Below are positions 1,622 through 30,297 of a DNA stretch of 64,000 nucleotides, piece after piece. Under the pieces are notes generated by a model. It searched no databases. It was not told the origin of the DNA and saw nothing but the letters and a program-made list of their open reading frames with translations. The translations under genes were made by a program, and so were the position numbers. Origin of the DNA: Haloarcula sp. DT43 (GTDB lineage: Archaea > Halobacteriota > Halobacteria > Halobacteriales > Haloarculaceae); the NCBI RefSeq assembly GCF_037078405.1, contig NZ_JAYMGZ010000002.1, positions 1 through 64,000 of the forward strand, written 5' to 3'. Within the stretch, counting starts at the first letter, position 1; every line of letters starts with the position of its first letter.

Positions 1622-1831
1622 CAGTTTTCTTTCGTCATATGAGCGGTCCCTCACTGTGATTAATAAACGTACGCAAAATACCGACGGCCTACCCTCTCCG
1701 ACTCACTTGCCAGAAAAATGCTGTAGATTACTGTTGACACTCGTATATTCCAGTTGTATAGCTATTACTTCCACTTCGGTCACCACACGTTATTGTACCC
1801 TCCGCTGTCAGGTTATAGTCATCCAAGACCA

Positions 1832-3001
1832 ATGACCAAAATCCTCCATCTAAGCGATACACATCTCGGGAATCGCCAGTACGGAAGCGATATCCGGCGA
1901 GACGACTTCACGAATGCCTTCGACGCGGCCATCGACTGCGCGGTCAGTGAAGACGTGGATGCCGTCATCCACACGGGCGATCTGTTCCACCGTCGTACGC
2001 CCTCGCTTCCGGTCGTCACGGACTGCATCCAAACCCTCCGGAAACTCGCCGACGCGGACATCCCGTTCTATGGGATCGTCGGAAACCACGACCGGAAGAT
2101 GGACAAACAGTGGCTGGACCTCATCCGAGAGACCGGCACGGCCGAACGCCTAGACCGCACGCCGACAACGGTAAACGACGACGTCGCTCTCTACGGGATT
2201 GACGCCGTCACCAAACCCGCGTGGGAGGCGACCGACTTCACACTCGACAAACCTGAGAACCGCGACGCGTTCTGCCTGCTCGGCCTCCACCAGCTATTCG
2301 AGCCGCTCGTCCCCGAATTCTACGCTGACCACAACCTCGGCAAGGTTCTCGAACGCGTAAACATCAATGTCGATGCGCTCGCACTCGGTGACTATCACCA
2401 GACTGAGAGTGGTATTATCGACGGCGTCCCTGCGTGGTACGCTGGCTCGACCGAACGCTGTGCGACGGACGAAGTAGAGCCGCGGACCGTCAGCCTGCTC
2501 GAAATAGAAGACGGTGAACTCGACCGACGAGAGATCGAACTCGACACGCGGGAGTTCGTCTCGATCCGGATTGAGTTCGACGAGGAGGACAGTCACGGGT
2601 ATGCGCGCGACCAGATCGCACGGCACCAGCTCGATGACACGGTTGCTATCGTCACGCTCGCCGGTGAGCGGACACCCGTCACGTCGAGCGACGTTTACGA
2701 GATGGTCGTCGATAACGGCGCGGCGGTATGCAAGGTTGACGACCGTCGTGGACGAACACAGTTCGATCCTGAGGACGGCCCGCAGGGCGCGATTCAGAGC
2801 GCAGACAAACTCATCGAGGAGAAACTCGCCGAGCAGAACCTCAGCGAGATCACGACCGCCGTCGAGGAACGCATTCGGAGCGATGACGATCTGGCGACCA
2901 GCGAAATCGACGACGTCATCGAAGGGATGATTCAAGACGCCCAGACGGACGCCTTCGCGGACCTGGACGATGTGGATGATGATGAGGTGAGCGAGCAGTG
3001 A
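1832..3001 (+). CDS. mre11: Mre11-family DNA double-strand-break nuclease
   Basis: A 390-residue calcineurin-like phosphoesterase of the Mre11/SbcD family, which with Rad50 opens and trims DNA ends using two metal ions. All phosphoesterase motifs are visible: SDTHLG (D9, H11), HTGDLFH (D50), GNHD (N85, H86), LGLHQL, and LGDYHQ. The ATG at 1832 is chosen over an earlier in-frame start because the family begins directly with MTKILHLSDTH. It overlaps rad50 by 4 bp and opens the operon mre11-rad50-nurA-herA. Being in an island, it is probably an extra copy used in defence or in the element's own replication; the chromosomal copy is not in view. Confidence 0.93.
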   Translation: MTKILHLSDTHLGNRQYGSDIRRDDFTNAFDAAIDCAVSEDVDAVIHTGDLFHRRTPSLPVVTDCIQTLRKLADADIPFYGIVGNHDRKMDKQWLDLIRETGTAERLDRTPTTVNDDVALYGIDAVTKPAWEATDFTLDKPENRDAFCLLGLHQLFEPLVPEFYADHNLGKVLERVNINVDALALGDYHQTESGIIDGVPAWYAGSTERCATDEVEPRTVSLLEIEDGELDRREIELDTREFVSIRIEFDEEDSHGYARDQIARHQLDDTVAIVTLAGERTPVTSSDVYEMVVDNGAAVCKVDDRRGRTQFDPEDGPQGAIQSADKLIEEKLAEQNLSEITTAVEERIRSDDDLATSEIDDVIEGMIQDAQTDAFADLDDVDDDEVSEQ

Positions 3002-6000
3002 AGATCAACTCGCTCACGCTCCAGAACATCCGGAGCTACGAGGATCAGACCGTCGAGTTCCCCAAGGGAACGATCCTCATCCACGGTGAGAACGGGGCCG
3101 GGAAGACCTCGCTCCTGATGGGGATCTTCGGTGGGCTGTTCCTCTCGAAGATCCGCAACGTCGGGACGAATGACTTCAGGCTTGACGACCTCGTGCGACG
3201 CGGCGAAGACAAAGGAACGGTAGAGCTCGTCTTCGAGATCGACGGCACCGAATACACCGCGACGTGGAAGCTGTACACCACGAGTACGCCGAACAGCGCC
3301 ACGCTTGACGCGCCTTCGTTCTCCGAGCCGATCACCGGGATCGGTCCGGTCCGCGAAGAAGTCATCAGCCTCCTTGGCATGGATGAGGACGACTTCTCCA
3401 GTTCGGTCTACGTGAAACAGGGCGAGATCGACCGGCTGATCGACGCCGGCAACCGCGCCGAAATGATCGACAGCTTGCTCGGTCTCGACGAGATCGACGA
3501 ATACATCGACCGGATGAAACTCGCGCGCCGCGGAGCCGGGCGCGTCCAAGAGCGAAACAAGAACAGCCGTGAGAACTACCAAGAGGATCTCGACGGCTTC
3601 GAGTATACCGAACCGGAGTACGAGGACGAAATCCAGTCACTCACCGACCGCATTCAGGAACTGGAAGCGGAGATCGAGGAATACGACGAGTTCATCGACC
3701 AACTCAAAGAGCAACGCAACCGCATCGAGGGCGACATTGAGGATTACGAAGACCTCGAAGCACGACGCGACGACAAGGTCGAACAGATCGAGTCCGCACA
3801 GGAAGACCGCACAGACGCGCAGTCCGACATCGACGATAGCGAGTCCACAATCCAAGACGCTCAGGACGACATCGAAGCCCTCGAAGACGAGATCGCCGCC
3901 CTTGACGACGAGGTCCAGTACGATCTCACCACGGCAGATAGTGCTCGTGACGCCCGTGAGGAGGCACAGAGTGAGTACACGACCGCGTCCACAGAGCGGA
4001 CGGAGCGGAAGAACGACTTCGAGAACGCACAAGCCGAGCTAGAACGCCTCGAAGAGCGCCTCACCGAGGTCCGCGACGAGCGCGAAGCACGCGTGAACGA
4101 GCGCGACGAACTCGAAGCGCGCCTCGAAGAGGCAGAGGCAGACCTCGAAGACGCCGAATCGGACCTCCATACTCGGCTTGACGACCGGAACGAGCACGTC
4201 GCGGCGTTCCTCCCTTCGGTCGACGACCTCGACGAGGTCACTGACGAGCACGAGCGCGCCGTCACGGACCGTATCGAGGATCTCCGCGAGCAGCGCGAAG
4301 ACCTGACCGGGACGAAACGCGAGGTCACAACGACACGCGAGCACACCAGCGAGGATCTCGAAGACGCGCGGTCTGAGCGAGACGACGCCGAAGACGAGTT
4401 AGCCGATGCCGAGGTCGAACTCGCTGACATAGAGGCCGACATCGAGCACGCCGAGGACGACCTCTCGGAAGCCGAGGACGAGTTCGAACGCCGTCTCGAC
4501 GAGCTCACTTCGCTCGGCTCCGACCTCGATATCGACGTTACCTCGGAGAATCTTGGCGAGCTCCGCGACACGGTCCTCCCGACCCGGCTCGAACAGGTCA
4601 ACACCGAGTTGAACGACGTCGGGAACACTATCGCCGGCCACGAGAACGACATCGAGCGCTACGAGGAGGAGATCACTGAACTCCAAGCCCTCGAAGAAGA
4701 AGGGACGTGCCCGAAATGCGGACAGTCGGTCGACGAAACACACGTGACTGATGAGGTTGCGGACCTCGAAGCGCAGATCGATAACGCGGAGTCTGCCCTC
4801 GAAGACGAGAGGGAGACCGAGGCAGCGCTCCAGTCGGAGAAAGCGTCACTACAGGACCTCCGTGATGATGTCATCGATGCCATTCAGTTCCGCGAGAACA
4901 CGCTCGTCGAGGCACGGGAGGACGTGACGTCGCTCCGAGACGAGGCGGCCGACGTAGAGACTCACATCGATGATCTTGAAGATACTATCGAGGCCCGTGA
5001 GACGACGATCACCGAACTTGAGGCTGAAATCGACGAGTTCGACGAACGCGTAGCGGACCTTGACGACGAGATCGAAACCGTCACCGCCGACATCGAGACC
5101 GGGGACGAGGTGCTCAGCACGTTCGAAGCGGTCCGTGAGCAGCGTGACGCGGTCGACACGCTCGAAACCGAGATCGAAGACCTCCAGAGCGAGATCGAAG
5201 ACGTGGCCGATACCATCGACACGCTCGACGAGGAAATCGCGGACCTCAACGGCGACATTGCTGACCAGGAAGCGGCTGTCGAGGACGCGGAAGCCGCCCT
5301 CGAAGCTGCGGACGAGCGCGTCGAACAGCTCGACGACGCTCGGAAGACGGTCGAAGACGCAGTCGAACGCTACGACGACATCGCCGATCTCCGAACCACG
5401 ATCCACCAGGAACAGCAGTCTATCCAACACGCACGTGACCGGATCGAGGCTCTCAACAGCCAGATCGCCCGTCTCCGCCAGGAGAAAGAGGACATAGAGG
5501 ACGACCTCGGCGAGAAGGATATCGAGGACCTCCAGGACGACCTGGGACAAGTCGAGGAACTCGTCGAGAAGCGCCAGGACCAGCGCGACGACCGGCAGGA
5601 GGAACTCCAAGATACCCGTGACGAGCGGACACGCCTGGAAGCAGACCTTGAGAACTTCCGTGCAACGAAGGCGCAGATCGACCTCTCGGAGCGGAAAGAG
5701 CGCTGGGCGCAGGAAGTCCACGACGAACTGGACTCGACGATTGCCATCTACGAGAGCACAAAGTCCGACCTCCGCGAACAGTACCTCGCGTACATCAACG
5801 AGTACACGAACGACATATTCAAAGAGATCTACAAGAACAGCAGCTACCAGCAGGTCCTCATCGAGGAAGCGTACAACGACCGCAGCGGGAGCTACGAGTA
5901 CGACATTCGCCTGCTGCGCGACGACGGAACGACCGAGGATCCGAGCAACGCCAGCGGCGGCGAGCGCGCCATCGTGAATCTCGCGCTCCGCGCCGGCATC

Positions 6001-6267
6001 TATAAGCTCATCGCCGAACTCCACGGCGGCAACCAGGGCCAGCTCCCGCCGTTCATCCTCGACGAGCCCACGACATTCCTCGACGAAGGCCACGTCGGCC
6101 AGCTCGAACAGATGCTGACGACCATTCAGAACTGGAACGTCCCGCAGATCATCGTCGTTTCACACGACGAGAGCCTCATCCACGGCGCTGACCACGAGTG
6201 CTACGTCACTATCGACGAGGCGTCGAACACGAGTCAGATCACGATGCGGACTGCGGGGGACGACTGA
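2998..6267 (+). CDS. rad50: Rad50-family SMC-like ATPase
   Basis: 1089 residues with the full Rad50 plan: Walker A GENGAGKTS near residues 31-39, two long acidic coiled coils, a zinc hook CPKC near residue 570, ABC signature SGGERAIVNLALR near 985, and Walker B FILDEPTTFLD near 1020. It uses a GTG start at 2998 inside the mre11 stop (GTGA overlap), which implies translational coupling. In the complex it bridges DNA ends and gates Mre11 nuclease activity. Length is at the upper end of archaeal Rad50. The coiled coil is extremely rich in Glu, Asp and Arg, which creates long open frames on the other strand that are not genes. Confidence 0.94.
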   Translation: MKINSLTLQNIRSYEDQTVEFPKGTILIHGENGAGKTSLLMGIFGGLFLSKIRNVGTNDFRLDDLVRRGEDKGTVELVFEIDGTEYTATWKLYTTSTPNSATLDAPSFSEPITGIGPVREEVISLLGMDEDDFSSSVYVKQGEIDRLIDAGNRAEMIDSLLGLDEIDEYIDRMKLARRGAGRVQERNKNSRENYQEDLDGFEYTEPEYEDEIQSLTDRIQELEAEIEEYDEFIDQLKEQRNRIEGDIEDYEDLEARRDDKVEQIESAQEDRTDAQSDIDDSESTIQDAQDDIEALEDEIAALDDEVQYDLTTADSARDAREEAQSEYTTASTERTERKNDFENAQAELERLEERLTEVRDEREARVNERDELEARLEEAEADLEDAESDLHTRLDDRNEHVAAFLPSVDDLDEVTDEHERAVTDRIEDLREQREDLTGTKREVTTTREHTSEDLEDARSERDDAEDELADAEVELADIEADIEHAEDDLSEAEDEFERRLDELTSLGSDLDIDVTSENLGELRDTVLPTRLEQVNTELNDVGNTIAGHENDIERYEEEITELQALEEEGTCPKCGQSVDETHVTDEVADLEAQIDNAESALEDERETEAALQSEKASLQDLRDDVIDAIQFRENTLVEAREDVTSLRDEAADVETHIDDLEDTIEARETTITELEAEIDEFDERVADLDDEIETVTADIETGDEVLSTFEAVREQRDAVDTLETEIEDLQSEIEDVADTIDTLDEEIADLNGDIADQEAAVEDAEAALEAADERVEQLDDARKTVEDAVERYDDIADLRTTIHQEQQSIQHARDRIEALNSQIARLRQEKEDIEDDLGEKDIEDLQDDLGQVEELVEKRQDQRDDRQEELQDTRDERTRLEADLENFRATKAQIDLSERKERWAQEVHDELDSTIAIYESTKSDLREQYLAYINEYTNDIFKEIYKNSSYQQVLIEEAYNDRSGSYEYDIRLLRDDGTTEDPSNASGGERAIVNLALRAGIYKLIAELHGGNQGQLPPFILDEPTTFLDEGHVGQLEQMLTTIQNWNVPQIIVVSHDESLIHGADHECYVTIDEASNTSQITMRTAGDD

Positions 6268-7557
6268 ATGGACGCGGACGCACTCGGCATTGTCCGCGAG
6301 ATGTTCGACCACATCGACACGAACATTCCGCGTGACGTCACGTCACAATCTGAGTACGCGCGCGAGCTGTTCGCTCACATCGCACTCGACGGCGGCCACG
6401 TGAGCGCGCTCGACGACCCGTCATACCAGAAGACACGGATCGACGAACTTGGGACGTGGACTGGCGACCCGTGGGGCAGTCCCACATACGGGCTCGACGC
6501 GAGCACCACCCGACCCTTAGAGTTCAACAATGGACTCATCGTGGACACGGCGTACGCCAAGATCGGCGTCGCCGGCGCGAACGCGGACAAACGCATCGAG
6601 GACACGGGCACCATCGAAACCGTCGTCTACCTCGCCGACAGCGACAGCACGCTCCACCCCCAGCAGTTCGAAACGGACCACGTCGCCGGTGAAGTTGTCC
6701 AGTTCCCGTCGACCCAACGCTCGGCGACGCTCTCGAAGTCCGTCGCCACGGCCGCACAAGGCCTCGCCGAAAGCTCGCACGCCGCTGCGAAGGTAGATGC
6801 GTTCGATGGCGTGTTGTTCATCGACGGCGCGGTCTACCCGCTCGGCGTGCTCTACTGGGTTCTTCTTGACAAAGTCGGCCGGACGACTCCCGTTGGGACG
6901 TGGGAGAAACCCGACGAGATCGTCCGCAACTACATCGACGTGATCGACACCCAGTACGAGCAGGGATTCCCCGTCGTCGGCGTCGTTAAGACCTCCACCA
7001 TCAGCCAACTCCTCGACGCCCTCGACGAGAAACTCGGGGCGAACGATATTACAGGTGAGCGCGGGACAGCCCCGGACGTGCCGTGGACGCGCGACCACCA
7101 ATTCATCGCGGAGGTACTCCGCGACGAGAGCCTCGAACACCTCACGTACACATCCTGGTTCGTCCACGAACAAGCCCCGGTCAACGGCGAGGCGTTCGAA
7201 CTCCTGGAACCCTACAGCAGCGAGCTATCGCACGGCGCACCGACAGACTACCGCCGAGCGTTCTTCTACGTCCGGCTCCCGAAGACCGGCGGTGTCCTCC
7301 GCGTCGAAACGCCGCAGCTCATGATCGCCGACGCGGCGACACGCGACGAACTCCAGTACAAGGTACTGAAAGAGATTGCACAAACGCAAGACGTGCCGCG
7401 TGCCGTCAAGCGCGCAGACCGCATCGCCCGAGTTAGCCCCGAGAACCGCGACACGATACGCGACTTCCTCACGACCGCCGACTACGCCCACGACTACAAC
7501 TGGGACGGCCGCTGGAACGATATCGAACAACCGCCAGAAACTCAATTCCAACAATGA
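6268..7557 (+). CDS. nurA: NurA-family 5'-3' nuclease
   Basis: 429 residues with the NurA RNase H-like fold signatures. The first metal-binding Asp is in YGLDAST, and the second acidic motif is VLFIDGAVYP. The C-terminal half carries the conserved RADRIARVS region. NurA is the ring-shaped nuclease that the HerA translocase drives along DNA during end resection in archaea. It begins directly after the rad50 stop and overlaps herA by 4 bp (ATGA), so all four proteins are probably made from one transcript. Confidence 0.9.
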   Translation: MDADALGIVREMFDHIDTNIPRDVTSQSEYARELFAHIALDGGHVSALDDPSYQKTRIDELGTWTGDPWGSPTYGLDASTTRPLEFNNGLIVDTAYAKIGVAGANADKRIEDTGTIETVVYLADSDSTLHPQQFETDHVAGEVVQFPSTQRSATLSKSVATAAQGLAESSHAAAKVDAFDGVLFIDGAVYPLGVLYWVLLDKVGRTTPVGTWEKPDEIVRNYIDVIDTQYEQGFPVVGVVKTSTISQLLDALDEKLGANDITGERGTAPDVPWTRDHQFIAEVLRDESLEHLTYTSWFVHEQAPVNGEAFELLEPYSSELSHGAPTDYRRAFFYVRLPKTGGVLRVETPQLMIADAATRDELQYKVLKEIAQTQDVPRAVKRADRIARVSPENRDTIRDFLTTADYAHDYNWDGRWNDIEQPPETQFQQ

Positions 7558-9425
7558 GCGACGACTTAGACGATCTCCTCGAAAACGACCCCGGCGCAGA
7601 CGACGAATCGACTGAAACCGAATCCACCGCCATAGACGAACAGGCCACGGATAGTAGTGATGACGTCGAATCCGAAGCGAACGTTCCCGAGACATCTGTA
7701 CCGAACGCGCTGACCGATTCCGACGAAGACGAGCTCGGTCACATCGTCGCCAGCGAAGAGATTCACGTTACGCGCAGCGACTACAAAGTCAACGCGTTCG
7801 TGAAAACCGACTGCCGTGACGACGTTCGCGTCGGTGACTACGTCCAAATCCCATATCCACAGTCAGATCCGACCGAGCAACCCGACGAACTCTTCGCTAT
7901 CGTCGATGGCCTCCGATACGAACCCTACACGGAACTCGACGACAAATCTGACACGCACAACCGGATTACGGCAGCCCACACCCTCGACGAGACAGAGTTC
8001 GTTCTCGTCGCCGAACTCGAACCAATCGCCATCATCTCCGCCACCGACGGCGGGCTCGAACGCAGCATCGTCAACAAAATCCCGAAACCCAACACGCCCG
8101 TGGCGCTCTCCCTCAATGAAGAGTACCTCCGCACCGGCCTCAACATCCCGCACGACGGCGTGTTCGCCGGGTACCTTTCCGTCGGCGGCGACCGCATGAC
8201 TGTTGACGGCGACCCACTCCCCTACTACATCAACAACCCCGGCATCGACCCCGTAACTAATGAAATCGAATCTGGTGAACCCGCGATCTTCCGGCACACC
8301 CTCGTCGCCGGCTCCACCGGGAAAGGGAAAACACACTTCACGAAGAACCTGCTCCGCCAGTTCGCCACGGACAAGCGCTACCCGATAGAGAACCACCAGA
8401 CCGGCGACACCGAACACAGCCGCCTCAACCTTGTCATCCTCGACCCCGAAAACGAATACTCCGAAATGCGGAACGACAACCCCGAACTCCGCAACGAGGA
8501 CGAACTCATTCAGCGGCTTGAACGCCAAGGCATCGAAGTCGGCGGCATCGACAACTTCGAGACATTCATCCCGGACATCGGAAACACCAACGCCCCGAGT
8601 ACCGGCGAGAGTCGAAACCTCACGATCCCCTTCTCGCTCGTCGAGCACCGTCCACAGCTCCTCATGCCGTACTCCCCGACGGAAGTCACACGCGGTGCCC
8701 TCGAAAACTGCATCGACGCGTACTTCACTGACACTGACACGCCGACGTACGACGGGTTCCTCCAGTACCTCCGCACCAACGAAGACTCGGACAGCCCGCT
8801 CCGCCAGCGGTACAACATCGAAGACGGCACATGGGGCGCAATCATGCGTCGCGTCACCGACGCCGCCTACCGCGACGTCTTCGACCACGGCACCAACCCC
8901 CTCCCCGACGTGTCAAACGCCGTGTTCCGCGAAGGCCAAGTCACCGTCATCCCAACCAGCCACCTCCACGGCGCAAAAGAAGAACTCACCGTCCTCTCTA
9001 TCCTCTCCTACATCATCGACAACAAAATCGACGACTACAACGTCGATCCCAACGTCAAAGACACCCCACTCCTCGTCGCCGTCGACGAAGCCCACAACTA
9101 CGTCTCCGACCCGAGCACCCTCCGCGAACAATACATCGTCAACCGCGCCCGCGACGCCGTCAAACAAGGCCGCAAAGACAAACTCGGCCTCTTTATGATC
9201 ACCCAAAACCCCGAAGACATCGACGGCGACATCCTCAAACAAACCAACACCAACATCTTCCTCGGCCTCCGCGAAGAAGTCATCACCAAAGTCCCCTCCA
9301 TCCCCCGCGGCTACGAACAAGACCTCCAAAAATACGGGAAAGGCCAAGCCGCCATCAAAGCCCCCGACGTCGAAGCCGTCGAAGTCACCGGCCTCCCCTA
9401 CTGCCTCACCCAACACAGCAACTGA
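7554..9425 (+). CDS. herA: HerA-family DNA translocase/helicase
   Basis: 623 residues. An acidic N-terminal tail (~60 residues) precedes a HAS-barrel-like domain, then a RecA/FtsK-type ATPase with Walker A AGSTGKGKTHFT near residues 252-260 and Walker B LLVAVDEAHNY near 508, followed by TQNPEDID and the C-terminal strap. HerA hexamers pump DNA to NurA and can act with Mre11-Rad50. The gene ends the operon. HerA proteins also serve as motors of several antiphage systems, so a defence role is reasonable here but inferred. Confidence 0.93.
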   Translation: MSDDLDDLLENDPGADDESTETESTAIDEQATDSSDDVESEANVPETSVPNALTDSDEDELGHIVASEEIHVTRSDYKVNAFVKTDCRDDVRVGDYVQIPYPQSDPTEQPDELFAIVDGLRYEPYTELDDKSDTHNRITAAHTLDETEFVLVAELEPIAIISATDGGLERSIVNKIPKPNTPVALSLNEEYLRTGLNIPHDGVFAGYLSVGGDRMTVDGDPLPYYINNPGIDPVTNEIESGEPAIFRHTLVAGSTGKGKTHFTKNLLRQFATDKRYPIENHQTGDTEHSRLNLVILDPENEYSEMRNDNPELRNEDELIQRLERQGIEVGGIDNFETFIPDIGNTNAPSTGESRNLTIPFSLVEHRPQLLMPYSPTEVTRGALENCIDAYFTDTDTPTYDGFLQYLRTNEDSDSPLRQRYNIEDGTWGAIMRRVTDAAYRDVFDHGTNPLPDVSNAVFREGQVTVIPTSHLHGAKEELTVLSILSYIIDNKIDDYNVDPNVKDTPLLVAVDEAHNYVSDPSTLREQYIVNRARDAVKQGRKDKLGLFMITQNPEDIDGDILKQTNTNIFLGLREEVITKVPSIPRGYEQDLQKYGKGQAAIKAPDVEAVEVTGLPYCLTQHSN

Positions 9426-9488: not shown

Positions 9489-9701
9489 ATGAAGCGGGTT
9501 CCTGTCTCATCAAGCAATCTCAGCAGTGTAGGATATGATGAATCAACTCAAGTATTGGAGATTGAGTTCAACGGTGGAAGAGTCTACCAGTATTTCAATG
9601 TCCCCCAGCGAATCCACCAAGAGCTCATGAGTGCTTCTTCACATGGAAAATACTTTCATCGGAATATAAAAGACAACTATAGCTACGACCAGGTCAAATA
9701 A
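9489..9701 (+). CDS. KTSC-domain protein
   Basis: 70 residues forming a single KTSC domain: VPVSSSNLSSVGYDE, then LEIEFNGGRVYQYFNVP and a C-terminal SHGKYFHRNIKDNY segment. KTSC domains are small, often found in phage or mobile-element genes, and are thought to bind nucleic acid or partner proteins. Its stop codon shares one base with the start of the OLD nuclease at 9701, so the two are coupled. Base composition drops markedly from herA to this pair, suggesting separate acquisition. Confidence 0.85.
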   Translation: MKRVPVSSSNLSSVGYDESTQVLEIEFNGGRVYQYFNVPQRIHQELMSASSHGKYFHRNIKDNYSYDQVK

Positions 9702-11617
9702 TGCGCATTAGTTCAGTCCGTGTCCAAAACTTTCGGAGTCTTAGGGATGCGCAGATCAATTTTAATGAGCTGACTGCTCTTATAGGATCAAATGGAGCTG
9801 GAAAATCTTCGTTCCTAAGGTCGTTACAACTGTTTTATACAGCGAACGCTTCGTACTCCGAAGAGGACTTCTACAATCGCAACACAAACGAAGAGATCAG
9901 TGTTCAAGTGGAGTTCACAGATTTGGGGGAAGATGCTAAAGAAAAATTCAGTCCATATACCGGCGGTGAAACATTAACCGTAGAAAAGGTAATGGAGTAT
10001 CCGGATAACCGTGGCAATCAACGATACCACGGGAATCGCTTGTATAATCCGGACTTTGACGGGTTCCGTAATGCAAGTGGCCACGATCTCCGCAGAGAAT
10101 ATGAGGCTCTATTTGATAGCGGCTACAGCGAATTTCCTGAGTACCAAAACCAGGAAGAAGCAGAGTCGGTATTACGAGAGTGGGAAGAGGAACACCCCGA
10201 CCAATGTGAACGTAGACGAGATGACGGTCAATTCTTCGGTTTTAATTCGGTTGGTCAAGCTGCTCTTGAGGAATATACGCGATATCTCTTGATTCCGGCA
10301 GTCCGTGATGCGAGTGAGGATGCTGATGATAAACGAGGTAGTCCCCTTACGGAGCTGATGGACTTGGTCGTTCGTGCAGCACTCTCGGAACGGGATGAGC
10401 TAGAGGAGTTTCAACAAGCCGCTCAGCGGCGCTATTCAGAGCTAATTGAGGATGCATCAGAAGCAGAACTTGGTCAGTTGGAGTCTGACCTTTCCTCTAC
10501 GCTAGAAACCTTCGCACCTGGTGTCGGTGTAGACCTTTCCTGGGATACAGAGAATGTCATCGATATTCAAATGCCCCAGGCAGATATCAAACTGGAGGTA
10601 GATGATTTTGTCTCGGAAGTTGAACACGCAGGTCACGGCTCTCAGCGTGCCTTCATTATTTCTCTCCTGCAAAACTTAGCAGTCCATAGCGAGGATATGA
10701 GCTCGACCGGCGAAGATGATAGCGACCACGATCCGAGCCTTATTTTAGGTATCGAAGAACCTGAACTATACCAACATCCAAATCGTCAGCGTCATCTTAT
10801 GTCTATTCTGTCTTCGTTCGACGACCAGGGAATAGCAGGCACAGCTAGTAGCGTTCAGGTCGTATATTCCACTCATTCTCCTTTGATGGTGAGTATGAAG
10901 CGATTTGACGACATACGGAGCTTATCAAAGATCGAAGCAGCGGAGGATTATCCCAAACACACTCAGGTTAAACAGAGCTCATTGGAGACGCTTGCTCGAC
11001 AGATGGAGAATGTCCATGAAGCAGATGAAGGAACCTTCTCCGGAGAATCGACACGCGCTCGTTTGGAACCGGTGATGACGCCCTGGGTTAATGAGGGATT
11101 CTTTTCCGACGTTGTTCTACTGGTCGAAGGGCTTGAAGACCGGTCAGCTCTTTTGGGACGGGCGAGTGCTAGGGGTATCGATCTTAGCTCTGAAGGGGTT
11201 GCTGTCCTTCCCTGCAACGGGAAAACAAAAATCGGTCGGCCCGCTATTATTTTCGAGGAATTAGGGAGATCTGTCTACGTTATGTTTGACTCAGACCATG
11301 ATGATGAGTCAGAAGCAGTCATCAATAAGCGATTGCTCCGTCTTGTTGACGCTGAAGAAGAAAACTGGCCTTCGGGAGTCTATGATCGCCATGCATGTTT
11401 CCAAGAGAATCTAACCCAATGTATCAGAAACTCGCTCGACCCTGACTTCTACAACGATGCACTCCGGGACGCCTGCGACAAATACGGATATCACAAACAG
11501 TCACGAGGGGCGAAGAACCCGACGGTTATGTCTACTGTATTCGAGACTGCAAAGCAGGATGACCGGTCTGTCCCGAAGCTTGACGAAGTCATTGATCAAG
11601 TTCTTGCGTTGGTGTAA
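9701..11617 (+). CDS. OLD-family ATP-dependent endonuclease
   Basis: 638 residues. The N-terminal ABC ATPase has Walker A IGSNGAGKSS (residues 28-37), signature-region HAGHGSQRAF, Walker B LILGIEEPELYQHP and H-loop YSTHSPLM. A C-terminal TOPRIM nuclease follows, with VVLLVEGLEDR (catalytic Glu) and YVMFDSDHDDE (DxD). OLD nucleases defend against phage and include GajA of Gabija. No GajB/UvrD helicase is adjacent, so this is not Gabija; the partner is the KTSC protein. The gene is distinctly AT-richer than the mre11-herA operon, a sign of different origin. Confidence 0.92.
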   Translation: MRISSVRVQNFRSLRDAQINFNELTALIGSNGAGKSSFLRSLQLFYTANASYSEEDFYNRNTNEEISVQVEFTDLGEDAKEKFSPYTGGETLTVEKVMEYPDNRGNQRYHGNRLYNPDFDGFRNASGHDLRREYEALFDSGYSEFPEYQNQEEAESVLREWEEEHPDQCERRRDDGQFFGFNSVGQAALEEYTRYLLIPAVRDASEDADDKRGSPLTELMDLVVRAALSERDELEEFQQAAQRRYSELIEDASEAELGQLESDLSSTLETFAPGVGVDLSWDTENVIDIQMPQADIKLEVDDFVSEVEHAGHGSQRAFIISLLQNLAVHSEDMSSTGEDDSDHDPSLILGIEEPELYQHPNRQRHLMSILSSFDDQGIAGTASSVQVVYSTHSPLMVSMKRFDDIRSLSKIEAAEDYPKHTQVKQSSLETLARQMENVHEADEGTFSGESTRARLEPVMTPWVNEGFFSDVVLLVEGLEDRSALLGRASARGIDLSSEGVAVLPCNGKTKIGRPAIIFEELGRSVYVMFDSDHDDESEAVINKRLLRLVDAEEENWPSGVYDRHACFQENLTQCIRNSLDPDFYNDALRDACDKYGYHKQSRGAKNPTVMSTVFETAKQDDRSVPKLDEVIDQVLALV

Positions 11618-11709
11618 TCCAAGTTCTGCTGTAAACGATATTGGTTCGGCAATTGGCCTAATTTCAGCCTCGTGAGAACGCTTATTCTGGCCGCCTGATA
11701 TGTGGCATC

Positions 11710-13098
11710 ATGGCGACTCAAACTGGAAAGTTCGATCTGAATATGGAGGAAGTGCTTGAGGCATGGGGGCCAGCCGATGCTACCCGCGAGATCCTTGCGA
11801 ACGCACTCGATGAACAAGCACTCACTAGCGGCTCCGACCCTGAAGTTTCACGAGACAATAAGGGGCGTTGGCACATCCGAGACTACGGTCGCGGCCTCCG
11901 GTACGAGCACCTCACTCAATCAGAAGACGACGAAAAACTGGCCAACCCCGATACTGTCATCGGGAAGTTCGGTGTCGGACTGAAAGACGCTCTCGCCACC
12001 TACCATCGTCACGGTATCGACGTCACCATCCACTCTTCACACAACACGTTCACCATTGAAGAAGCGCCGAAACACGGGTTCGAAGAGATTTCCACCCTCC
12101 ACGTAACCATCCACCCTCCACAGGAAGATATCGACGGCACGGACGTCGTTCTTGACGGGATTTCTGAAACCGCAATCGCAGACGCCAAATCGAACTTCAT
12201 CCGGTACTCCGATCTGGACCTTCTAGAATCGACTGGGTTCGGTGATGTCTATCAGGTTCAAGACGGGGAAGACGCGGGCGTGTACGTCACCGGCCTCAAA
12301 GTCGCTGAAGAGCCGAACTTCCTGTTCTCGTACGACATCACGAACACGACGAAGAAAATCCGTGACGCGCTGAACCGCGAGCGCTCCAACGTCGGCCGAA
12401 CCGCGTACACATCCCGCGTCAAAAAGATCCTCCAGGCGTGTGACTCCGAAGCTGTCGCAAAGCGCCTCGTCGATGACCTGCAACGATTCACCGACGGTGA
12501 AACCCATGACGAACTCGGCTGGAAACCAATCCAACTACACGCAGTCCGGATTCTCAACGCCAGACAAGACGTCGTCGTCACAACCGTCGACGAACAACAG
12601 AAACACCGGGACCTCCTCGACCACGCCAAAGACGACGGGCACTCCGTCGTGACCGTACCCGACCGAATCCGAGCCGAACTCTCAGACACATCCGACGTCG
12701 ACGGCAATCAAATCCGGGACGTCACAGTCTACGAAAACGAGTACAACGACAGCTTCGAATTCGACTGGGTCGATGAATCCGCACTCACGACAAAGGAACT
12801 GGCCGCGTGGGACTCCCGCGATGAAATCCTAGAAATCGTGGGACGGCCGCAAAACTACGAGTACCGCATAGCGAGTCAGTTCCGAGCCACCGACGACGAC
12901 CAGACCCGCGGGCTCCACGAGCCCGGAGAACAACGAATCATCATCCACCGTAACGTGTTAAGCGACCAGGCAGAATTTATCGGCGTCTTTCTCCACGAAC
13001 TCGCACACACCAGAACCCCATTCCCCGACCAAACACGCGAGTTCGAAAGCGTACTTACGGAACTGCTCGGAGAAGTCGGCGTGGAGGCACTTTCGTAA
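11710..13098 (+). CDS. GHKL ATPase with C-terminal zinc-protease-like HExxH motif
   Basis: 462 residues. The N-terminal Hsp90/MutL/MORC-like ATPase shows the N box (E27 and N31 in REILANALDE), the G1 box RDYGRG (D58, G60, G62) and the G2 box IGKFGVGLKDA (G85, G88, G90). Near the C-terminus FLHELAHT places H429, E430 and H433 as a zincin HExxH motif, with REFESVLTELLG downstream as a possible third ligand. The middle has no recognised domain. It is followed 1 bp later by a DEDD exonuclease gene. MutL/MORC-like ATPases occur in restriction loci, but I know no named system with this fusion. Confidence 0.82.
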   Translation: MATQTGKFDLNMEEVLEAWGPADATREILANALDEQALTSGSDPEVSRDNKGRWHIRDYGRGLRYEHLTQSEDDEKLANPDTVIGKFGVGLKDALATYHRHGIDVTIHSSHNTFTIEEAPKHGFEEISTLHVTIHPPQEDIDGTDVVLDGISETAIADAKSNFIRYSDLDLLESTGFGDVYQVQDGEDAGVYVTGLKVAEEPNFLFSYDITNTTKKIRDALNRERSNVGRTAYTSRVKKILQACDSEAVAKRLVDDLQRFTDGETHDELGWKPIQLHAVRILNARQDVVVTTVDEQQKHRDLLDHAKDDGHSVVTVPDRIRAELSDTSDVDGNQIRDVTVYENEYNDSFEFDWVDESALTTKELAAWDSRDEILEIVGRPQNYEYRIASQFRATDDDQTRGLHEPGEQRIIIHRNVLSDQAEFIGVFLHELAHTRTPFPDQTREFESVLTELLGEVGVEALS

Positions 13099-13099
13099 C

Positions 13100-13837
13100 A
13101 TGGGAACACTCGTCCTTGACATCGAAACCGCGAGTCCATTCGAAGAACCACCCGAGAACTCCAACGACACGAAATACTACGAATGGTTTGCCGTCAGCCT
13201 CGCATACGCCGATGAGTTAGAAACCACGCCAGAAACCGAAGTTATGTTCCGCCGCGGCGGCTGGGACGCCTCCTATACCGTCGACCTCTACCAGCGAATG
13301 TTCGAGTGGTGCGACCAACGAGATGTCGAGCGCCTGCTCACCTACAACGGTGCCTGGTTCGACGGAAAGCATCTCCTCAACTGGGCCAGCGACATCGACG
13401 ACACCGCAGACCAAACCTTCCAGGAACAAACCGAGACGCTATTCGAGAACCATATCGACGTCGCTCTCGCAGCCGCCGACGAGTACTCCGAAGAACTCTG
13501 GGACGAACAGCACATTCTCCCAGACTGGAAAGCATACAATCTCACAGAAATCAACAACGAGGGCGTCTGGTACGACGATTACGACTTCCCAGACACATAC
13601 CTTTCAGACATCGATGGAGCCGCTGTCCAAGGCAAACACATCGGTCAAGTCCTCGGCGAACGCTACATCGACAACGTCGAAGCAGGCATCGAAGCGACCA
13701 GTGTCCACCGAGAACTCACACGATTGCTCGAAGACTACTGCACAAGCGACGTCGCCGACCTGATTGAGCTCTACACCACACTCGGCGGCCCAACCCTCGA
13801 CGAAGCGTATCGCCGGACAGCAGCTGAAATCATCTAA
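13100..13837 (+). CDS. DEDDy-type 3'-5' exonuclease-like protein
   Basis: 245 residues of the RNase H-like DEDD nuclease superfamily. Motif I is LVLDIET (D7, E9), motif II is TYNGAWFDGKHL (N83, D88) and motif III is DYCTSDVADL, the YxxxD form. No polymerase domain is attached. It starts 1 bp after the GHKL-zincin gene stop, and the pair likely forms one functional unit. Its end overlaps by 4 bp the convergent McrC-like gene. A second, DEDDh-type family member is encoded at 36381-37040 in the HRAMP operon. Confidence 0.82.
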   Translation: MGTLVLDIETASPFEEPPENSNDTKYYEWFAVSLAYADELETTPETEVMFRRGGWDASYTVDLYQRMFEWCDQRDVERLLTYNGAWFDGKHLLNWASDIDDTADQTFQEQTETLFENHIDVALAAADEYSEELWDEQHILPDWKAYNLTEINNEGVWYDDYDFPDTYLSDIDGAAVQGKHIGQVLGERYIDNVEAGIEATSVHRELTRLLEDYCTSDVADLIELYTTLGGPTLDEAYRRTAAEII

Positions 13838-15225
13838 AACACCTCATCTGGCGAGTCAGGGTACTGTACGATCTCGATCTTCTCCTCCGAATTCGACGGG
13901 ATCTCTCGGCCCAGATCGTCCACGAACAGTAGACCTTTGACGTCAACCGAATCAAGAATATTTTCTGGGGCTTCGACATACTCATCCGTAGCAGCCTGCC
14001 TAACAAACGCCATATATTCCAGTAATTCACGTAGCCCAGTCGCAGCGTAATCGACACTCTGAGTGTATTTCACTTCTCCAATAAACACCTGGTCCAATAC
14101 CCAGTCACCCGATTCCGCTGCCTGGTACCGTTCCAAAACAATGTCTGGACGGCCACCCCACAGCGAACCACTCCCACTGCGATCCAACATCCGCTCAGAC
14201 AATGATTGCCACCGAGACAGCACCTCATTCATTCGGAACAAATACCCATCCGGATCGATGTCCTCATCTCCCACTGACTCGTTGAACGTGAGCTTCTCTC
14301 CTGTTGAATCGTGCGACAACCGATACCGGAATCCGTCTTGTTCCCACGTAGCGATTGTCGACGGGCTTTCTCTACTGTCAGTCAATACCCGGTACTGGAC
14401 TCCCTCATAGGCATCTAATACGCGGAATACCCAGTACAGTTCAAACAGGACTTCTGTCTTCTCAGGTGCAATAATCGTGTGATTCAGAATCTCGCGTGCC
14501 TCATCACTATCCAGTTCTTGATTCACCAGCTGCCGATACCGATCCAGTAGAATCGCAGCCTCCTGATAGAATCTTGACCGAGATCGCTTGACCGATTCAA
14601 CAGTCCGGTCCGTGATATCTGCCTCCTCAACATTGATGCGTTGAAGATAGATGTTCTGTTCATAGATCCGATCAAGCATCTCCACTGCAGACTCAGCCTC
14701 TACCGCGATCTCGCTGTCTGAATCGACCCATGGGCCGAGCCATCCATACCCATCTGGATTGTCCACTGCGTACTCCAGATCTTCCGTCAGAATCTCGTGA
14801 ATGACGGTTAGTAACCGCTTTAACACGAGATTCTCGTCGATATTGTAATGTTCCTCTGATTGGTTACACACGAAGATCGGCTCACTAAGTCGCCCCGCCC
14901 TTGCCCGAGTCTTCACTGTCCCTTGCCAATCGATCTGCCCGCGCACCTCGCCATGATACTCATGTGCCTCCGGCGAGGTCGTCGTCTTCATCCGGCGGAT
15001 ACGTGCTTCCAATTCCCGCATAAAGTCCAACACCCCGACGTCCTGGTCATCCGTTTCAGCATCAGTCAACACAAAGTGAATCCGAAGCAGAGTCTCGATA
15101 TCGTCTATCTCAAGATCCGAGTGCGCTGAACCGATAACTCGGTCAAACCGAACCCCCTTCCGAAGGTACGTGTGGAAATCATCCGCAATCGCATCGAGTA
15201 ACGCCTCCTCACTCGTCTTCGCCAT
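13834..15225 (-). CDS. mcrC: McrC-like type IV restriction nuclease subunit
   Basis: 463 residues, second gene of a pair with the McrB-like ATPase, 6 bp apart. The C-terminal part has a PD-(D/E)XK nuclease core: RPDIVLERY followed by VFIGEVKYTQS, giving D...ExK. The N-terminal two thirds are helical and poorly conserved, as usual for McrC, whose N-terminal part contacts the McrB ring. In type IV restriction McrC cuts DNA bearing modified bases when McrB translocates. Identification rests on the motif, the length and the partner gene. Confidence 0.82.
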   Translation of the reverse strand: MAKTSEEALLDAIADDFHTYLRKGVRFDRVIGSAHSDLEIDDIETLLRIHFVLTDAETDDQDVGVLDFMRELEARIRRMKTTTSPEAHEYHGEVRGQIDWQGTVKTRARAGRLSEPIFVCNQSEEHYNIDENLVLKRLLTVIHEILTEDLEYAVDNPDGYGWLGPWVDSDSEIAVEAESAVEMLDRIYEQNIYLQRINVEEADITDRTVESVKRSRSRFYQEAAILLDRYRQLVNQELDSDEAREILNHTIIAPEKTEVLFELYWVFRVLDAYEGVQYRVLTDSRESPSTIATWEQDGFRYRLSHDSTGEKLTFNESVGDEDIDPDGYLFRMNEVLSRWQSLSERMLDRSGSGSLWGGRPDIVLERYQAAESGDWVLDQVFIGEVKYTQSVDYAATGLRELLEYMAFVRQAATDEYVEAPENILDSVDVKGLLFVDDLGREIPSNSEEKIEIVQYPDSPDEVF

Positions 15226-15231
15226 CCCAAA

Positions 15232-18200
15232 TCACTCCTCGTCACTAGGCTGCAGGTCAACCTGGAAAAAGTCCCGCGCAACCGTCCACAACTCTCCAGC
15301 CCTATCATCCACAATCGAATCAAGCTGCTCGATCAGGGCCTCTAACTCGTTCCGACGCAGCCCCTCCAACTGCGGGAACACATACATAATCAGCGGCGAC
15401 ACGTAATCTGCGTCCTCACGAGTTGGTGCCGCTGCAACGTACTCGTAGATATCCTCCACAATAGCCGGTCCAATTGACCGCTCCTCGTTCACAGCCCGCC
15501 AGATCCGACCCACCGGCTCGTAATGCTGTTCAGCTTCAGGTACGCTCCCATCAGCCGCCCACACCTTCACGTACTCCTCAACCAACTCTTCTAACTCAGA
15601 ATCATCCTCGTCCACCCGCTCAGGAAGCTCAGGAATCCCGACTGGAATGAACGCCCATCGTCGCATAAACGCATAACTCATCTCATACAGCGAGGTCTTG
15701 TCGAGCGTGTTCATCGTCGCAATCATCTGCCAATCCTCCGGGATATAGAACCGATTCGTGTCCACCTCCACGCCCGTCTGTGACGCATCGAGAATCTGGA
15801 TCGGATCCCCATTCGATCCATCAAACGGCAACGTGACACTCTCACCCGTCAATGCAGAAAACAGCGATCCAAACGCTTTGTCGATATCAGCTCGGTTGAG
15901 TTCGTCGATGATGAGCCACTCGTTCGTCGGCGACCCATCAGCATCGTCCTGAAACCGATCCAGCACAATTCCCGGTTCGAATTCGAGCGTATTCTTCGAG
16001 GTCGTCTGATACCCACCAACGGTATCAAACGTAGACCAATCAGCTGACGCCGTCACAAGCTCAAAATCGTCTTCCCCGACTGTGTCTTCACACACCTGAC
16101 GAGCAAGCTTCGTCTTCCCCGTCCCCGGCGGCCCAAACAGCAACACGTGCTTCCCATTCGCAAGCGCTCGCTCTATCCGAGACTGGATTCGGCCCCACTC
16201 CCCTTGCTCATCCTCCGCCCCATCTGGGAAGTGCAGATTCTTCCGATCCACAGTGATCTCTGAATTCGGTACCTCCAGCTCTTCAACGAAATCACCAAAC
16301 GTCGTTTTCCGGGTCAACTCCAGAATCCTATCGTACTCCTGTTTGGTGAGTTCAGTAACAACAAAGCTGTTTCCCGACTCGACGAGCCTACTGGCTTCCA
16401 GTTCTGAATCCGACGTTATGTCGTTCCAACCTACCCCATCCACAGATTCATCCCAGCGGAGGGTAATCCCGGCTACCGGTTCCTCGCTATCCTCTACAGA
16501 TTCCTCGTGTAACCCGCGAGCCACGTGGGCTCGCCCGACAACACGTTTTTCAGGCGAAATCTGATAGACGAGCACCTCATCGCCCCGCTGCGCCTTTTGA
16601 TACGCCTCCTGATTTCGACGTTTCCCACCAGATGGACCTGTAACCGTATAGAAGGCCTCACCCCCTTCCTCCTGCCAGTCAGTGGCTTCTGCATTCACCC
16701 AGAAGTACCGCGTGGACGTCCCCAACTCCACAACGGTCCGATAATCACGGCCCGTAATCTCGATAATCGGGTGTTGGAGAGAAATAGATGTCTCAAACTC
16801 CCCACGCACTGAATTCACGTCAACCGGATCCAACTCCTCGTACTCCTCAATATCCGCGAAGCAGTGCGTCTCATCACCTCGCTCTTCTTCGTGAATCTCA
16901 ACAATCCGTGCCCTCGCATAGATGTCTCCGTCTTCCAAGTATAACACACGGGCAGTCTCAGCATCCCCCAACTTCCGTGAACCAGGGATTCCCATCTTGA
17001 AATGGTACTGCTCAGCAGGTTTATCCTCCCACTCGTCACTCCCCGTTTGCAGGATGAAGAAACTCTGCGTAGCAAAATCTACACTAGCATGCTCAAGACG
17101 CTGCAGTGGAGCGAGTGTTTCCGCTGGAAGATTCCTCGCCAGAAGTCCTCGAAGTTCCTCAAAACAATCGTACGCGACGACTGTCCGATTGTCAAACTGT
17201 TTTGAAACTCCCCAGTCCTGGATATTGACCGCGTCAGAAACGCTTCGCGTAAAGACCCACTCAACGTGTCTGATACACGGATGCGTGTCTGATTCACCCT
17301 CATTAGAAAACGCGATCTCACGAACCGTACCGCCCACATACTCGTACCCATCAGGCGCTACGACACCGAGCCCCAACAGATCGTGATGTCCTCCTTTGGC
17401 GACCACGATATCTCCGGGCGACATCCGCTCTACGAGCGTTTTGCTCTGCGAATTCAACTCATCAGTAGAGACCTGGCTTAATGGTCCGATATCCCACCCC
17501 ACTGAAATCACATTTCGTTCTATCCAGATCGGCCAGAGCTCTTCTGGGTACGAATGCTTGTTCGTCCCAGGTTGTACCTGCCACGCGTTCCGAGAAATTC
17601 CTTCCCTGAGCGCCTCAGACCATACGTTGTCGGCCGATTGTACCCAGTGAAGGAAGTAATCTAAATCACGGAAATGGCTCTCGAACGAGAATTCTTCTCG
17701 AACTTCAAGGAATCTCTCACGCTCATCCAGGTAATCACTCAGTTCCTGACTCACCTGCTCACCGGTCATCAACTCCATTCCATCACAAGACCGTCCGTTG
17801 ATAACTGGAAAAAGATCAGGAGCCAGGTAATGAAATATCGGCGAAATACGGCCGGACTGAACCCCATAAAAGTCAATCGTCAAGATCTCACGCACTGTAT
17901 CGACTAACTCCGATTCACCCTCATAGTCCTCAACAATCCGAGCAAAACACTCGTGCAAATCCCGTTCCAACTCAGGAAACTCGTCTTCTTTTCCCCCCAC
18001 ATGTATCGGGGGATTCGTCATACTCTGACCAACGCTTCCAACAGACGCATCGATATCATCGACGATCTGCTCTGTCTTGCCATCAGATAAGCCAAGTTGA
18101 CGGACAAGCTCCCGTTTGTCCTCAGCCGACCGCCCATCACTGCTATTCTGACACAAATGATACAGCGTCTTCAGTTCCTGATCCCCAATCCGCTCTCGCT

Positions 18201-18351
18201 CTTCAACCAAGCTCTCGACAGTCCCTCGGACGACCCGAGTCGTTTGCTCAGCAGATTCCTTGAGCGCTTCCCACGACGGCTCTTCACGCTCTTTGAACCG
18301 ATCAACAAGAAACTGAGAACGGTAATACGACTCGCCCTGAGAATCGAACAT
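15232..18351 (-). CDS. mcrB: McrB-like AAA+ NTPase with EVE/PUA-like reader domains
   Basis: 1039 residues. After a helical N-terminus there is a PUA/EVE-like region at about 235-395 (WQVQPGTNKHSYPE, ISVGWDIG, MSPGDIVVAKGG), then a clearer EVE-type domain at about 548-700 (YFWVNAEATDW, GDEVLVYQIS). The AAA+ motor follows, with Walker A LFGPPGTGKTKLA near 740, Walker B LIIDELNRADI near 813, and the McrB-type ATMNTLDKTS near 880. EVE domains flip and read modified cytosines, so the pair is expected to attack modified invader DNA. It must tolerate the phosphorothioate marks made by the dnd genes nearby. Two reader-like regions in one McrB are unusual. Confidence 0.88.
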   Translation of the reverse strand: MFDSQGESYYRSQFLVDRFKEREEPSWEALKESAEQTTRVVRGTVESLVEERERIGDQELKTLYHLCQNSSDGRSAEDKRELVRQLGLSDGKTEQIVDDIDASVGSVGQSMTNPPIHVGGKEDEFPELERDLHECFARIVEDYEGESELVDTVREILTIDFYGVQSGRISPIFHYLAPDLFPVINGRSCDGMELMTGEQVSQELSDYLDERERFLEVREEFSFESHFRDLDYFLHWVQSADNVWSEALREGISRNAWQVQPGTNKHSYPEELWPIWIERNVISVGWDIGPLSQVSTDELNSQSKTLVERMSPGDIVVAKGGHHDLLGLGVVAPDGYEYVGGTVREIAFSNEGESDTHPCIRHVEWVFTRSVSDAVNIQDWGVSKQFDNRTVVAYDCFEELRGLLARNLPAETLAPLQRLEHASVDFATQSFFILQTGSDEWEDKPAEQYHFKMGIPGSRKLGDAETARVLYLEDGDIYARARIVEIHEEERGDETHCFADIEEYEELDPVDVNSVRGEFETSISLQHPIIEITGRDYRTVVELGTSTRYFWVNAEATDWQEEGGEAFYTVTGPSGGKRRNQEAYQKAQRGDEVLVYQISPEKRVVGRAHVARGLHEESVEDSEEPVAGITLRWDESVDGVGWNDITSDSELEASRLVESGNSFVVTELTKQEYDRILELTRKTTFGDFVEELEVPNSEITVDRKNLHFPDGAEDEQGEWGRIQSRIERALANGKHVLLFGPPGTGKTKLARQVCEDTVGEDDFELVTASADWSTFDTVGGYQTTSKNTLEFEPGIVLDRFQDDADGSPTNEWLIIDELNRADIDKAFGSLFSALTGESVTLPFDGSNGDPIQILDASQTGVEVDTNRFYIPEDWQMIATMNTLDKTSLYEMSYAFMRRWAFIPVGIPELPERVDEDDSELEELVEEYVKVWAADGSVPEAEQHYEPVGRIWRAVNEERSIGPAIVEDIYEYVAAAPTREDADYVSPLIMYVFPQLEGLRRNELEALIEQLDSIVDDRAGELWTVARDFFQVDLQPSDEE

Positions 18352-21722: not shown

Positions 21723-22213
21723 CTCTCTTGCTGGTCTACGAGAACATCTTCTAGACGCTCTTCCCACTTTTGATCAGCTTCGTCGATGAAAGCGAGGAGG
21801 TCAAACTCGTCTTTCAGGCTGATGTCTTGGTCGATTGCTTCTACGCCGGCATCAGCATATTGGAGGGCAAGTTCCCAGAGTTCGCTGTCCTCTGGATCTT
21901 CGTCGCTGTGTTCCAGTTCGATAAGTTTGTAGATGAACTCGATTCCCTCTCGGTATTCATTTTCGGAGGAGCCACCGACTCGGTTTACCTGGATGAAGTC
22001 TTGGGAGTAGCTGCCTTCGGACTCTGTACGGGGATCATCTCTGAGAAATCCGAGAACCAGACCAGCAGTGAATAGTTCGTAGTTGGTGTCGAAGGGGTAG
22101 TCGTTTTTATCGTTTACTTCGACATTGTCGTCTTTGCGGGCGGTCCGCAGCACCATGTTTCGGTAGATATCGAAGCGGGCTGTCTTGAGCCGTCTGGAGG
22201 TTGTAGTGCTCAT
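21719..22213 (-). CDS. pbeD: PbeD-like protein of the phosphorothioation-linked defence module
   Basis: 164 acidic residues, last gene of the eight-gene operon, overlapping the ATPase gene upstream by 4 bp. It starts MSTTTSRRLKTARFDIYRNM and contains a helical region similar in size to DndE-type accessory proteins; no catalytic motif is visible. The published archaeal system has the order dndCDEA-pbeABCD. Naming here follows that order, not sequence comparison. Confidence 0.6.
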   Translation of the reverse strand: MSTTTSRRLKTARFDIYRNMVLRTARKDDNVEVNDKNDYPFDTNYELFTAGLVLGFLRDDPRTESEGSYSQDFIQVNRVGGSSENEYREGIEFIYKLIELEHSDEDPEDSELWELALQYADAGVEAIDQDISLKDEFDLLAFIDEADQKWEERLEDVLVDQQES

Positions 22214-24273: not shown

Positions 24274-24277
24274 AGTG

Positions 24278-24487
24278 CTAATCCTCCATGCTCCATCCGT
24301 TATCGACGTAGTTCTCCAGTATCTGTCTTAATTCCGAGGGAAGCCCCGCCCTCCGGTCCATTGTGACCATCTCTTTTTCGAGGACATAGATCTCTTTCAG
24401 TAGATCCTCTGGGATATTCCGCTCATCAGCCTGTTCAGCGATTAATTTCTCAATCTCCGGATCGATTTCCTCTTCTTCAGTACTCAT
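24278..24487 (-). CDS. pbeB: Small acidic protein (PbeB position)
   Basis: 69 residues, very acidic (MSTEEEEIDPEIEKLIAEQA), predicted to be helical. It overlaps the helicase gene upstream by 4 bp and lies 4 bp from the ATPase gene downstream, so it is surely part of the operon. No domain is recognised. Small linker subunits of this kind often connect a motor to a nuclease. The pbeB name is by operon position only. Confidence 0.6.
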   Translation of the reverse strand: MSTEEEEIDPEIEKLIAEQADERNIPEDLLKEIYVLEKEMVTMDRRAGLPSELRQILENYVDNGWSMED

Positions 24488-26643: not shown

Positions 26644-26668
26644 TCTTGGATGTTTGGAGGGATGTTTG

Positions 26669-30281: not shown

Positions 30282-30297
30282 TGATTAGAGAGATGGT

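Follow-up and report, generated by a model that had tools for sequence, protein, structure and literature searches.

Gene A of Haloarcula sp. DT43 encodes a protein in which a GHKL ATPase with an S5-type transducer is joined to a zincin-like domain. Tentatively, we read A as an ATP-operated clamp of the gyrase/Hsp90/MutL/MORC superfamily with its own putative zinc metalloprotease, and as a mobile accessory to systems directed at DNA ends or foreign DNA. Neither A nor gene B, which follows it, has a name in the Pfam, PADLOC 2.0 or NCBIfam libraries. No PADLOC 2.0 family matches A or B at E<=1, NCBIfam gave nothing useful for either, and Pfam has no match for B. A search of the open-access full-text literature found no description of a GHKL-zincin protein.

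The two genes lie in the analysed stretch of 64,000 nucleotides (the window), which belongs to a genome of 3.75 Mb. The genes for Mre11, Rad50, NurA, HerA, a KTSC protein, OLD, A and B all lie on the + strand between 1754 and 13837, with A and B at the end of the array. The features are listed here by position.

1754 to 3001, + strand: Mre11-like phosphoesterase, second copy (Metallophos E 4e-13; the other copy is at C1:926749, 37% identity)
2998 to 6267, + strand: Rad50-like SMC ATPase (AAA_23 E 1.8e-23; Rad50 profile)
6268 to 7557, + strand: NurA nuclease (NurA E 1e-11)
7554 to 9425, + strand: HerA helicase, second copy (DUF87 E 5.5e-11; the other copy is at C2:389132, 37%)
9489 to 9701, + strand: KTSC-type small protein, 70 aa (DNA aligned with an annotated KTSC gene of a Haloferax plasmid)
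9701 to 11617, + strand: OLD-family AAA_15-TOPRIM nuclease, directly upstream of A (AAA_15 E 5e-43; OLD-like TOPRIM E 1e-12; PADLOC Old E 9e-54)
11710 to 13098, + strand: gene A, GHKL-S5-zincin protein, 462 aa (AlphaFold2 model pLDDT 90.4, pTM 0.78)
11731 to 12501, + strand: residues 8-264 of A, GHKL ATPase and S5-type transducer (invariant residues; VIA-align Z 11-12)
12790 to 13092, + strand: residues 361-461 of A, zincin-like domain (DSSP of the model; weak family matches)
12994 to 13008, + strand: HELAH motif of A, residues 429-433, with D440 and E446 downstream (kept in 70/71 relatives)
13100 to 13837, + strand: gene B, DEDDy-type exonuclease-like protein, 245 aa (D7, E9, D88, Y213, D217)
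13834 to 15225, convergent to B: 463-aa protein in the place of McrC
15232 to 18351, - strand, convergent to B, after the 463-aa protein: 1039-aa protein with EVE and McrB-like AAA domains
22210 to 31779, - strand: Dnd-Pbe DNA phosphorothioation system (DndA, DndC, DndD/PbeC, DndE, PbeA, second PbeC)
46101 to 47489, - strand: ATPase-like protein (PADLOC candidate PDC-S27, E 7e-45)

An Mre11-Rad50-HerA-NurA end-resection set is thus present just upstream of A in the same operon. It differs in being a second copy for Mre11 and HerA and in being joined to OLD, A and B. Its four genes (1754-9425) share 94% DNA identity with a plasmid of Haloferax alexandrinus, and by sequence this second set looks mobile.

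The preliminary description had placed A and B at these coordinates, with the start of B 1 bp after A, and the coordinates are exact. It knew of no named defence system with this layout, and indeed no defence, Pfam or NCBIfam model names A or B; its setting among other defence genes is borne out for both A and B. Complete N, G1 and G2 boxes and a HELAH motif had been claimed for A and a DEDDy set for B, and all three stand in the family alignments given below. The HExxH region, which was required to fold as a metalloprotease, has a confident prediction of an a/b domain with zincin-like secondary structure in a model of mean pLDDT 90.4.

Architecture of protein A

The ATP-site residues of A are invariant. 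N31 and D34 of the N box, D58, G60 and G62 of the G1 box and G85, F87, G88 and G90 of the G2 box are identical in 71/71 aligned relatives, as are K92, N222, R223, E224, G229 and R230. The N, G1 and G2 motifs that mark the GHKL superfamily are therefore found in every row. The alignment has 71 rows, its members are 41-91% identical to the window protein, and conservation is highest in the GHKL-S5 module. Residues 8-264 of the model align with GyrB 43K (4wub) at Z 11.4 and rmsd 4.0 over 231 residues (VIA-align), and the same region aligns with Hsp90 and MORC2 (Z 11-12). The N-terminal part is modelled with confidence as a gyrase/MutL/MORC-like GHKL and S5 module. PDB matches listed in the fold search are GHKL proteins, and they mostly cover model residues 8-345 and not the zincin part, so that the lack of zincins among them carries no weight. 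The AlphaFold2 model also contains a middle domain between the GHKL-S5 and C-terminal domains. Pfam gives sub-threshold matches of the window protein to GHKL and to DUF6782 (putative metallopeptidase), while HATPase_c_3 is found in 65/71 family members at E<=0.05.

Residues 361-461 form a helix, three strands, a helix (420-435) bearing the HExxH motif and a helix at 443-461 (DSSP). This is the order of elements expected of a minimal zincin, a statement about order and not about a fold match. H429, E430, H433, D440, F445 and E446 are each present in 70/71 relatives, the exception being the L097 type (L and G numbers denote loci and genomes). In the model HExxH lies on a helix of an a/b domain, and D440 or E446, downstream of it, is the candidate third zinc ligand. 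A chance motif was ruled out because HExxH is retained in 70/71 relatives that are 41-91% identical to the query.

Profile matches to known zincins are weak. Like A, the SprT, WLM, DUF6782 and M76 peptidases carry HExxH, and some A members match the SprT-like, DUF6782, M76 and WLM families, whereas no match of the window protein reaches a curated cut-off. At E<=0.05 the 71 members include 12 with DUF6782, eight with SprT-like, four with M76 and two with MPTase-PolyVal matches, and the best Pfam match of the C-terminal domain to known zincins has E 0.0025. Its profile has no significant match among solved structures (best Wss1, E 0.075, and WLM protease, E 0.19). Of 36 C-terminal segments compared with PHROGs, 23 hit phrog_87, 'metallo-protease', with a best E of 2.4e-4. 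The C-terminal part is probably, as modelled, a zincin-like a/b domain and a putative protease.

The motif can be lost. One subclade of haloarchaea (L019, L063, L064=L097, L094, L095, L096) has other residues in place of HELAH but an intact GHKL part, so the putative protease is not always needed. In L063, L095 and L096 gene A of this subclade faces large genes, which in L095 are SNF2/PLD-like and type IIG-like. Elsewhere A is shortened (L066=L099), stops at contig ends (L153, L171) or has its C-terminus absent from the open frame (L161). A Citrobacter plasmid (L025, 5947-6294) encodes a 115-aa protein that has this domain, as HELIH...D...FE, but no ATPase. The GHKL region of A and some C-terminal zincin segments match phrog_8203 (394 aa), which from these matches is possibly a phage-borne version of the GHKL-zincin fusion.

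The paraMORC1-5 proteins are prokaryotic GHKL-S5 ATPases of R-M operons, and the available part of their description gives them restriction-fold nuclease, TIR or HxH domains as C-terminal parts (Iyer et al. 2008, PMC2292703). As far as that part describes them, MORC and paraMORC proteins share with A the GHKL and S5 module, a sporadic spread, R-M and helicase neighbours and a varied C-terminal effector. A has the same GHKL plus S5 architecture, with restriction-type neighbours at part of its loci. It is unlike them in its zincin-like domain and its Mre11-Rad50 partners, and the words 'peptidase' and 'protease' have no occurrence in PMC2292703. A fits the paraMORC idea with a zincin as effector, a likeness drawn from descriptions of paraMORCs and not from their sequences. 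MORC proper carries the motif GhXhhpXXRhl in the S5 domain (PMC2292703, available part); at G195, the one site aligned, by eye, A has N or D for the required R.

It is possible that A is a paraMORC-type ATP-driven looping or clamp factor, which would tether DNA so that restriction or repair nucleases encoded nearby can act on it. Its zincin domain would then dock or regulate and would cut nothing but A or a partner, perhaps to set a nuclease free. Conservation strongest in the GHKL-S5 module, a C-terminal motif that can be lost and R-M and helicase neighbours of the kind reported for paraMORCs in the available part of PMC2292703 are all consistent with this. Retention of HExxH-D-E in 70/71 sequences across phyla, however, argues for real catalysis, and most A genes are without one constant partner to regulate. 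We rate this tether, its zincin being regulatory, as almost as probable as a clamp with a protease.

Phage RIIA also has an N-terminal GHKL module, with structural matches to A in viral models; in sequence the matches are weak and extend over some 190-260 residues. Its C-terminal domains are described as highly variable in the available part of PMC7824862. The named RIIA hits are longer. A is mostly cellular, with two loci in the viral collection.

Gene B and its pairing with A

Gene B carries, on its sequence, the complete DEDDy set (DxE, D, YxxxD). D7, E9 and D88 are invariant in 41/41 rows and Y213 and D217 in 40/40 of a 42-row alignment that includes duplicate loci; for the tree of B the duplicate loci, L047 and L017 were removed from these 42 rows. 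The structure model of B (pLDDT 40, from a 4-row alignment) was too poor for a fold search. Relatives of B occur in 94/392 sampled haloarchaeal genomes. Without A, they stand beside Piwi, DEAD/MZB helicase and RNase_H_2 genes (L070, L071), PLD-domain genes (L080, L081), DEAD helicases (L083-L085) or SMC/Rad50-like and Mre11-like genes (L074, L076, L077). Piwi (Argonaute) genes were seen near B relatives at L070, L071, L090, L018 and L091, with DEAD/MZB helicase and RNase_H_2 or PLD. The window also encodes, at 36381-37040 on the + strand, a 219-aa protein that begins with a DIETTG exonuclease-like motif and has no BLASTP similarity to B. The gene array at 32.5-41 kb that holds it is partly common to L059 and L071.

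The A stop ends at 13098 and the B ATG is at 13100, both on the + strand, and the 1-bp gap recurs in L090. Between the window and G023 the common block (11663-13874, 85%) consists of A and B alone with a few tens of bases on each side, and the surroundings otherwise differ. In the comparison with Halobellus (L090) the shared A+B block reaches into the next genes. All B-adjacent A genes form one clade (support 99/97) with a single change of label. The B genes next to them belong to two separate clades of B, and 0% of bootstrap trees give these one origin, as would be seen after a swap of the B partner or its very rapid evolution; some rows are long-branched. In one haloarchaeal A clade, then, sequence comparison identifies A+B as a transferable two-gene cassette.

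The pairing is not general. A profile search found B in only 6/94 A neighbourhoods, all haloarchaeal. Eight sampled haloarchaeal genomes have a long A match and a B relative; the two are adjacent in four (G000, G023, G216, G246) and apart in four (G074, G102, G134, G276). A universal A+B module was rejected because of the six neighbourhoods and because B relatives are found in 94/392 genomes and long A matches in 13/392. In the Haloferax alexandrinus plasmid and G379 the HerA-side genes and B are kept, with a different OLD-type gene and A as a 3' remnant. Short 3' remnants of A lie at L176 (11826-11999) and near 554-679 of L069, with B downstream and a different OLD-like gene upstream; the L176 remnant still reads HELAH.

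The proposal of a two-part A+B unit in the preliminary description is borne out as a cassette of some haloarchaea and is not supported as a general arrangement. The neighbourhood check that it called for gave co-occurrence in one haloarchaeal A clade, while most A and B genes are separate. A self-standing antiviral pair, whose protease would activate the exonuclease or act together with it, is unlikely. The 1-bp gap in the window and L090, the block shared without other genes and the single A clade served by two B lineages speak for it. They are set against A without B across phyla and B near A in just six neighbourhoods, B next to Piwi, PLD, helicase or Mre11-Rad50 genes where A is absent, and a Haloferax plasmid that keeps B while A is a remnant.

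Spread and neighbours of gene A

Scanning genome contigs for gene A turned up 179 relatives. The best 80 of these, at 41-91% identity, come from haloarchaea, DPANN, Thaumarchaeota, Lokiarchaeota, Bathyarchaeota and many bacterial phyla. The gene is sporadic. Matches occur in 16/392 sampled haloarchaeal genomes (13 long), in 7/250 genomes of the Nitrosopumilus order, Nitrosopumilales (5 long), and in 7/156 genomes of the phylum to which the Aenigmatarchaeota locus L109 belongs (2 long). Sphingomonads have matches in 139/347, only three of them long; the others lie within residues 22-150, and from their sequence we take them to be of the GyrB/ParE type. Ten plasmid records match, an A-profile scan found two viral contigs, and 28 phage records match only over parts of the GHKL region. 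A phage origin of the haloarchaeal A+B pair was rejected: viral scans with A and with B found no relative, and the A-profile scan found two.

The 94 neighbourhoods compared derive from 103 loci with an A match. Duplicates (L057, L058, L061, L062, L064, L066, L098) and distant or partial loci (L024, L025) were dropped, and L067 and L068 have no A open reading frame. Near-identical pairs remain, for example L117/L120 and L118/L119, so the counts cannot be taken as independent. A simple script served for gene calling, and some small or overlapping ones are unreliable, such as those miscalled around A in L021. The neighbours annotated are a chosen part, at most 20 of 87 operon-type ones plus eight large ones.

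The most recurrent neighbour is Mre11-Rad50. By profile search an Mre11-like gene is present in 16/94 neighbourhoods and in none of the other 78. Such genes make up 15/794 within five positions of A versus 1/653 further out (Fisher P 0.0009; 0.037 with sphingomonads and DPANN archaea each counted once), in a test that ignores other kinship and whose profile was built from the same hits as were counted. DPANN archaea (L109, L111, L121), Nitrosopumilales (L145 and L226, the latter fetched afterwards) and Novosphingobium (L117, L120) have Mre11-Rad50-A in this order on one strand, as does Dormibacterota (L141) with a 300-bp gap. As a control, Mre11-like genes are present at 4/20 loci with B relatives (L070-L089), and are therefore not rare in haloarchaeal islands.

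After Mre11-Rad50 come restriction, DISARM-, Druantia-, Wadjet- and OLD-type genes. In Salinibacter type I R-M genes flank A on both sides, and at L103 it lies beside an N6_N4 methylase and ResIII. SNF2/DrmD-like and type IIG-like genes occur near A at L095, L102 and L105, a DruE-like gene at L155, SMC and JetD_C at L133, OLD/AAA_15 at L163, in the window and at L161 (by clustering), and RmuC at L161. Ordinary neighbours, such as a NADH dehydrogenase subunit (L115) and a thioredoxin-like protein (L100), are found too, and several operon neighbours have no Pfam match.

The Mre11-Rad50 partners, together with Wss1/WLM proteases as nearest profile hits among solved structures (non-significant, E 0.075-0.19), would suit a DNA repair protein for protein-DNA crosslink or end clean-up that merely gathers on mobile islands and has no anti-invader role. 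That reading is improbable, given the sporadic presence of A (long matches in 13/392 haloarchaeal and 5/250 Nitrosopumilales genomes), its carriage on plasmids and its restriction and DISARM/Druantia-like neighbours.

Proposed role of A

In the preferred reading, binding of ATP would close the A dimer on DNA or nucleoprotein. The protease would then cut proteins that shield foreign DNA, whether end-bound, terminal or crosslinked, and Mre11-Rad50, NurA-HerA or B would degrade the uncovered DNA. This clamp with a protease is suggested by ATP-site residues kept in 71/71 and protease-site residues in 70/71 relatives, by the GHKL and S5 model and by the recurrent Mre11-Rad50 and restriction neighbours. 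It is weakened by the 88/94 neighbourhoods without B, the 78/94 without Mre11 and the weak zincin profile matches. A may instead be an R-M regulator or chaperone and not a protease aimed at invaders. As its relatives often lie beside genes for DNA-end cutting or restriction, an antiviral or DNA-cleaning enzyme without earlier characterisation is a possible identity for A.

Rad50 complexes recognise free, hairpin and protein-linked DNA ends, and Lamassu combines an SMC-like sensor with varied effectors, peptidases included, according to the available part of PMC10586767. The context of A resembles Lamassu, as described there, in that a Rad50-like protein is coded with a nuclease or protease effector. 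A is unlike Lamassu in having its own ATPase, and PADLOC, which includes Lamassu models, matches neither A nor B. A wider proposal, which is doubtful, is that A represents a widespread unnamed class of immune or genome-guard enzymes, in which a DNA-clamping, ATP-gated metalloprotease would join with Mre11-Rad50, and in haloarchaea also with a dedicated DEDDy exonuclease, to free the ends of foreign DNA of protective or terminal proteins and thereby open the DNA to destruction by nucleases.

Both putative active sites of the A proteins, an ATPase and a protease, are strictly conserved in a family that spans many phyla of archaea and bacteria and has no name in the libraries searched. The A proteins put a putative protease in the C-terminal slot where described paraMORC ATPases have nuclease or TIR domains. 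Eukaryotic crosslink-repair proteases clear proteins from DNA. The position of A beside Mre11-Rad50 raises the question of whether a prokaryotic protease may clear proteins off foreign DNA ends before nucleases act.
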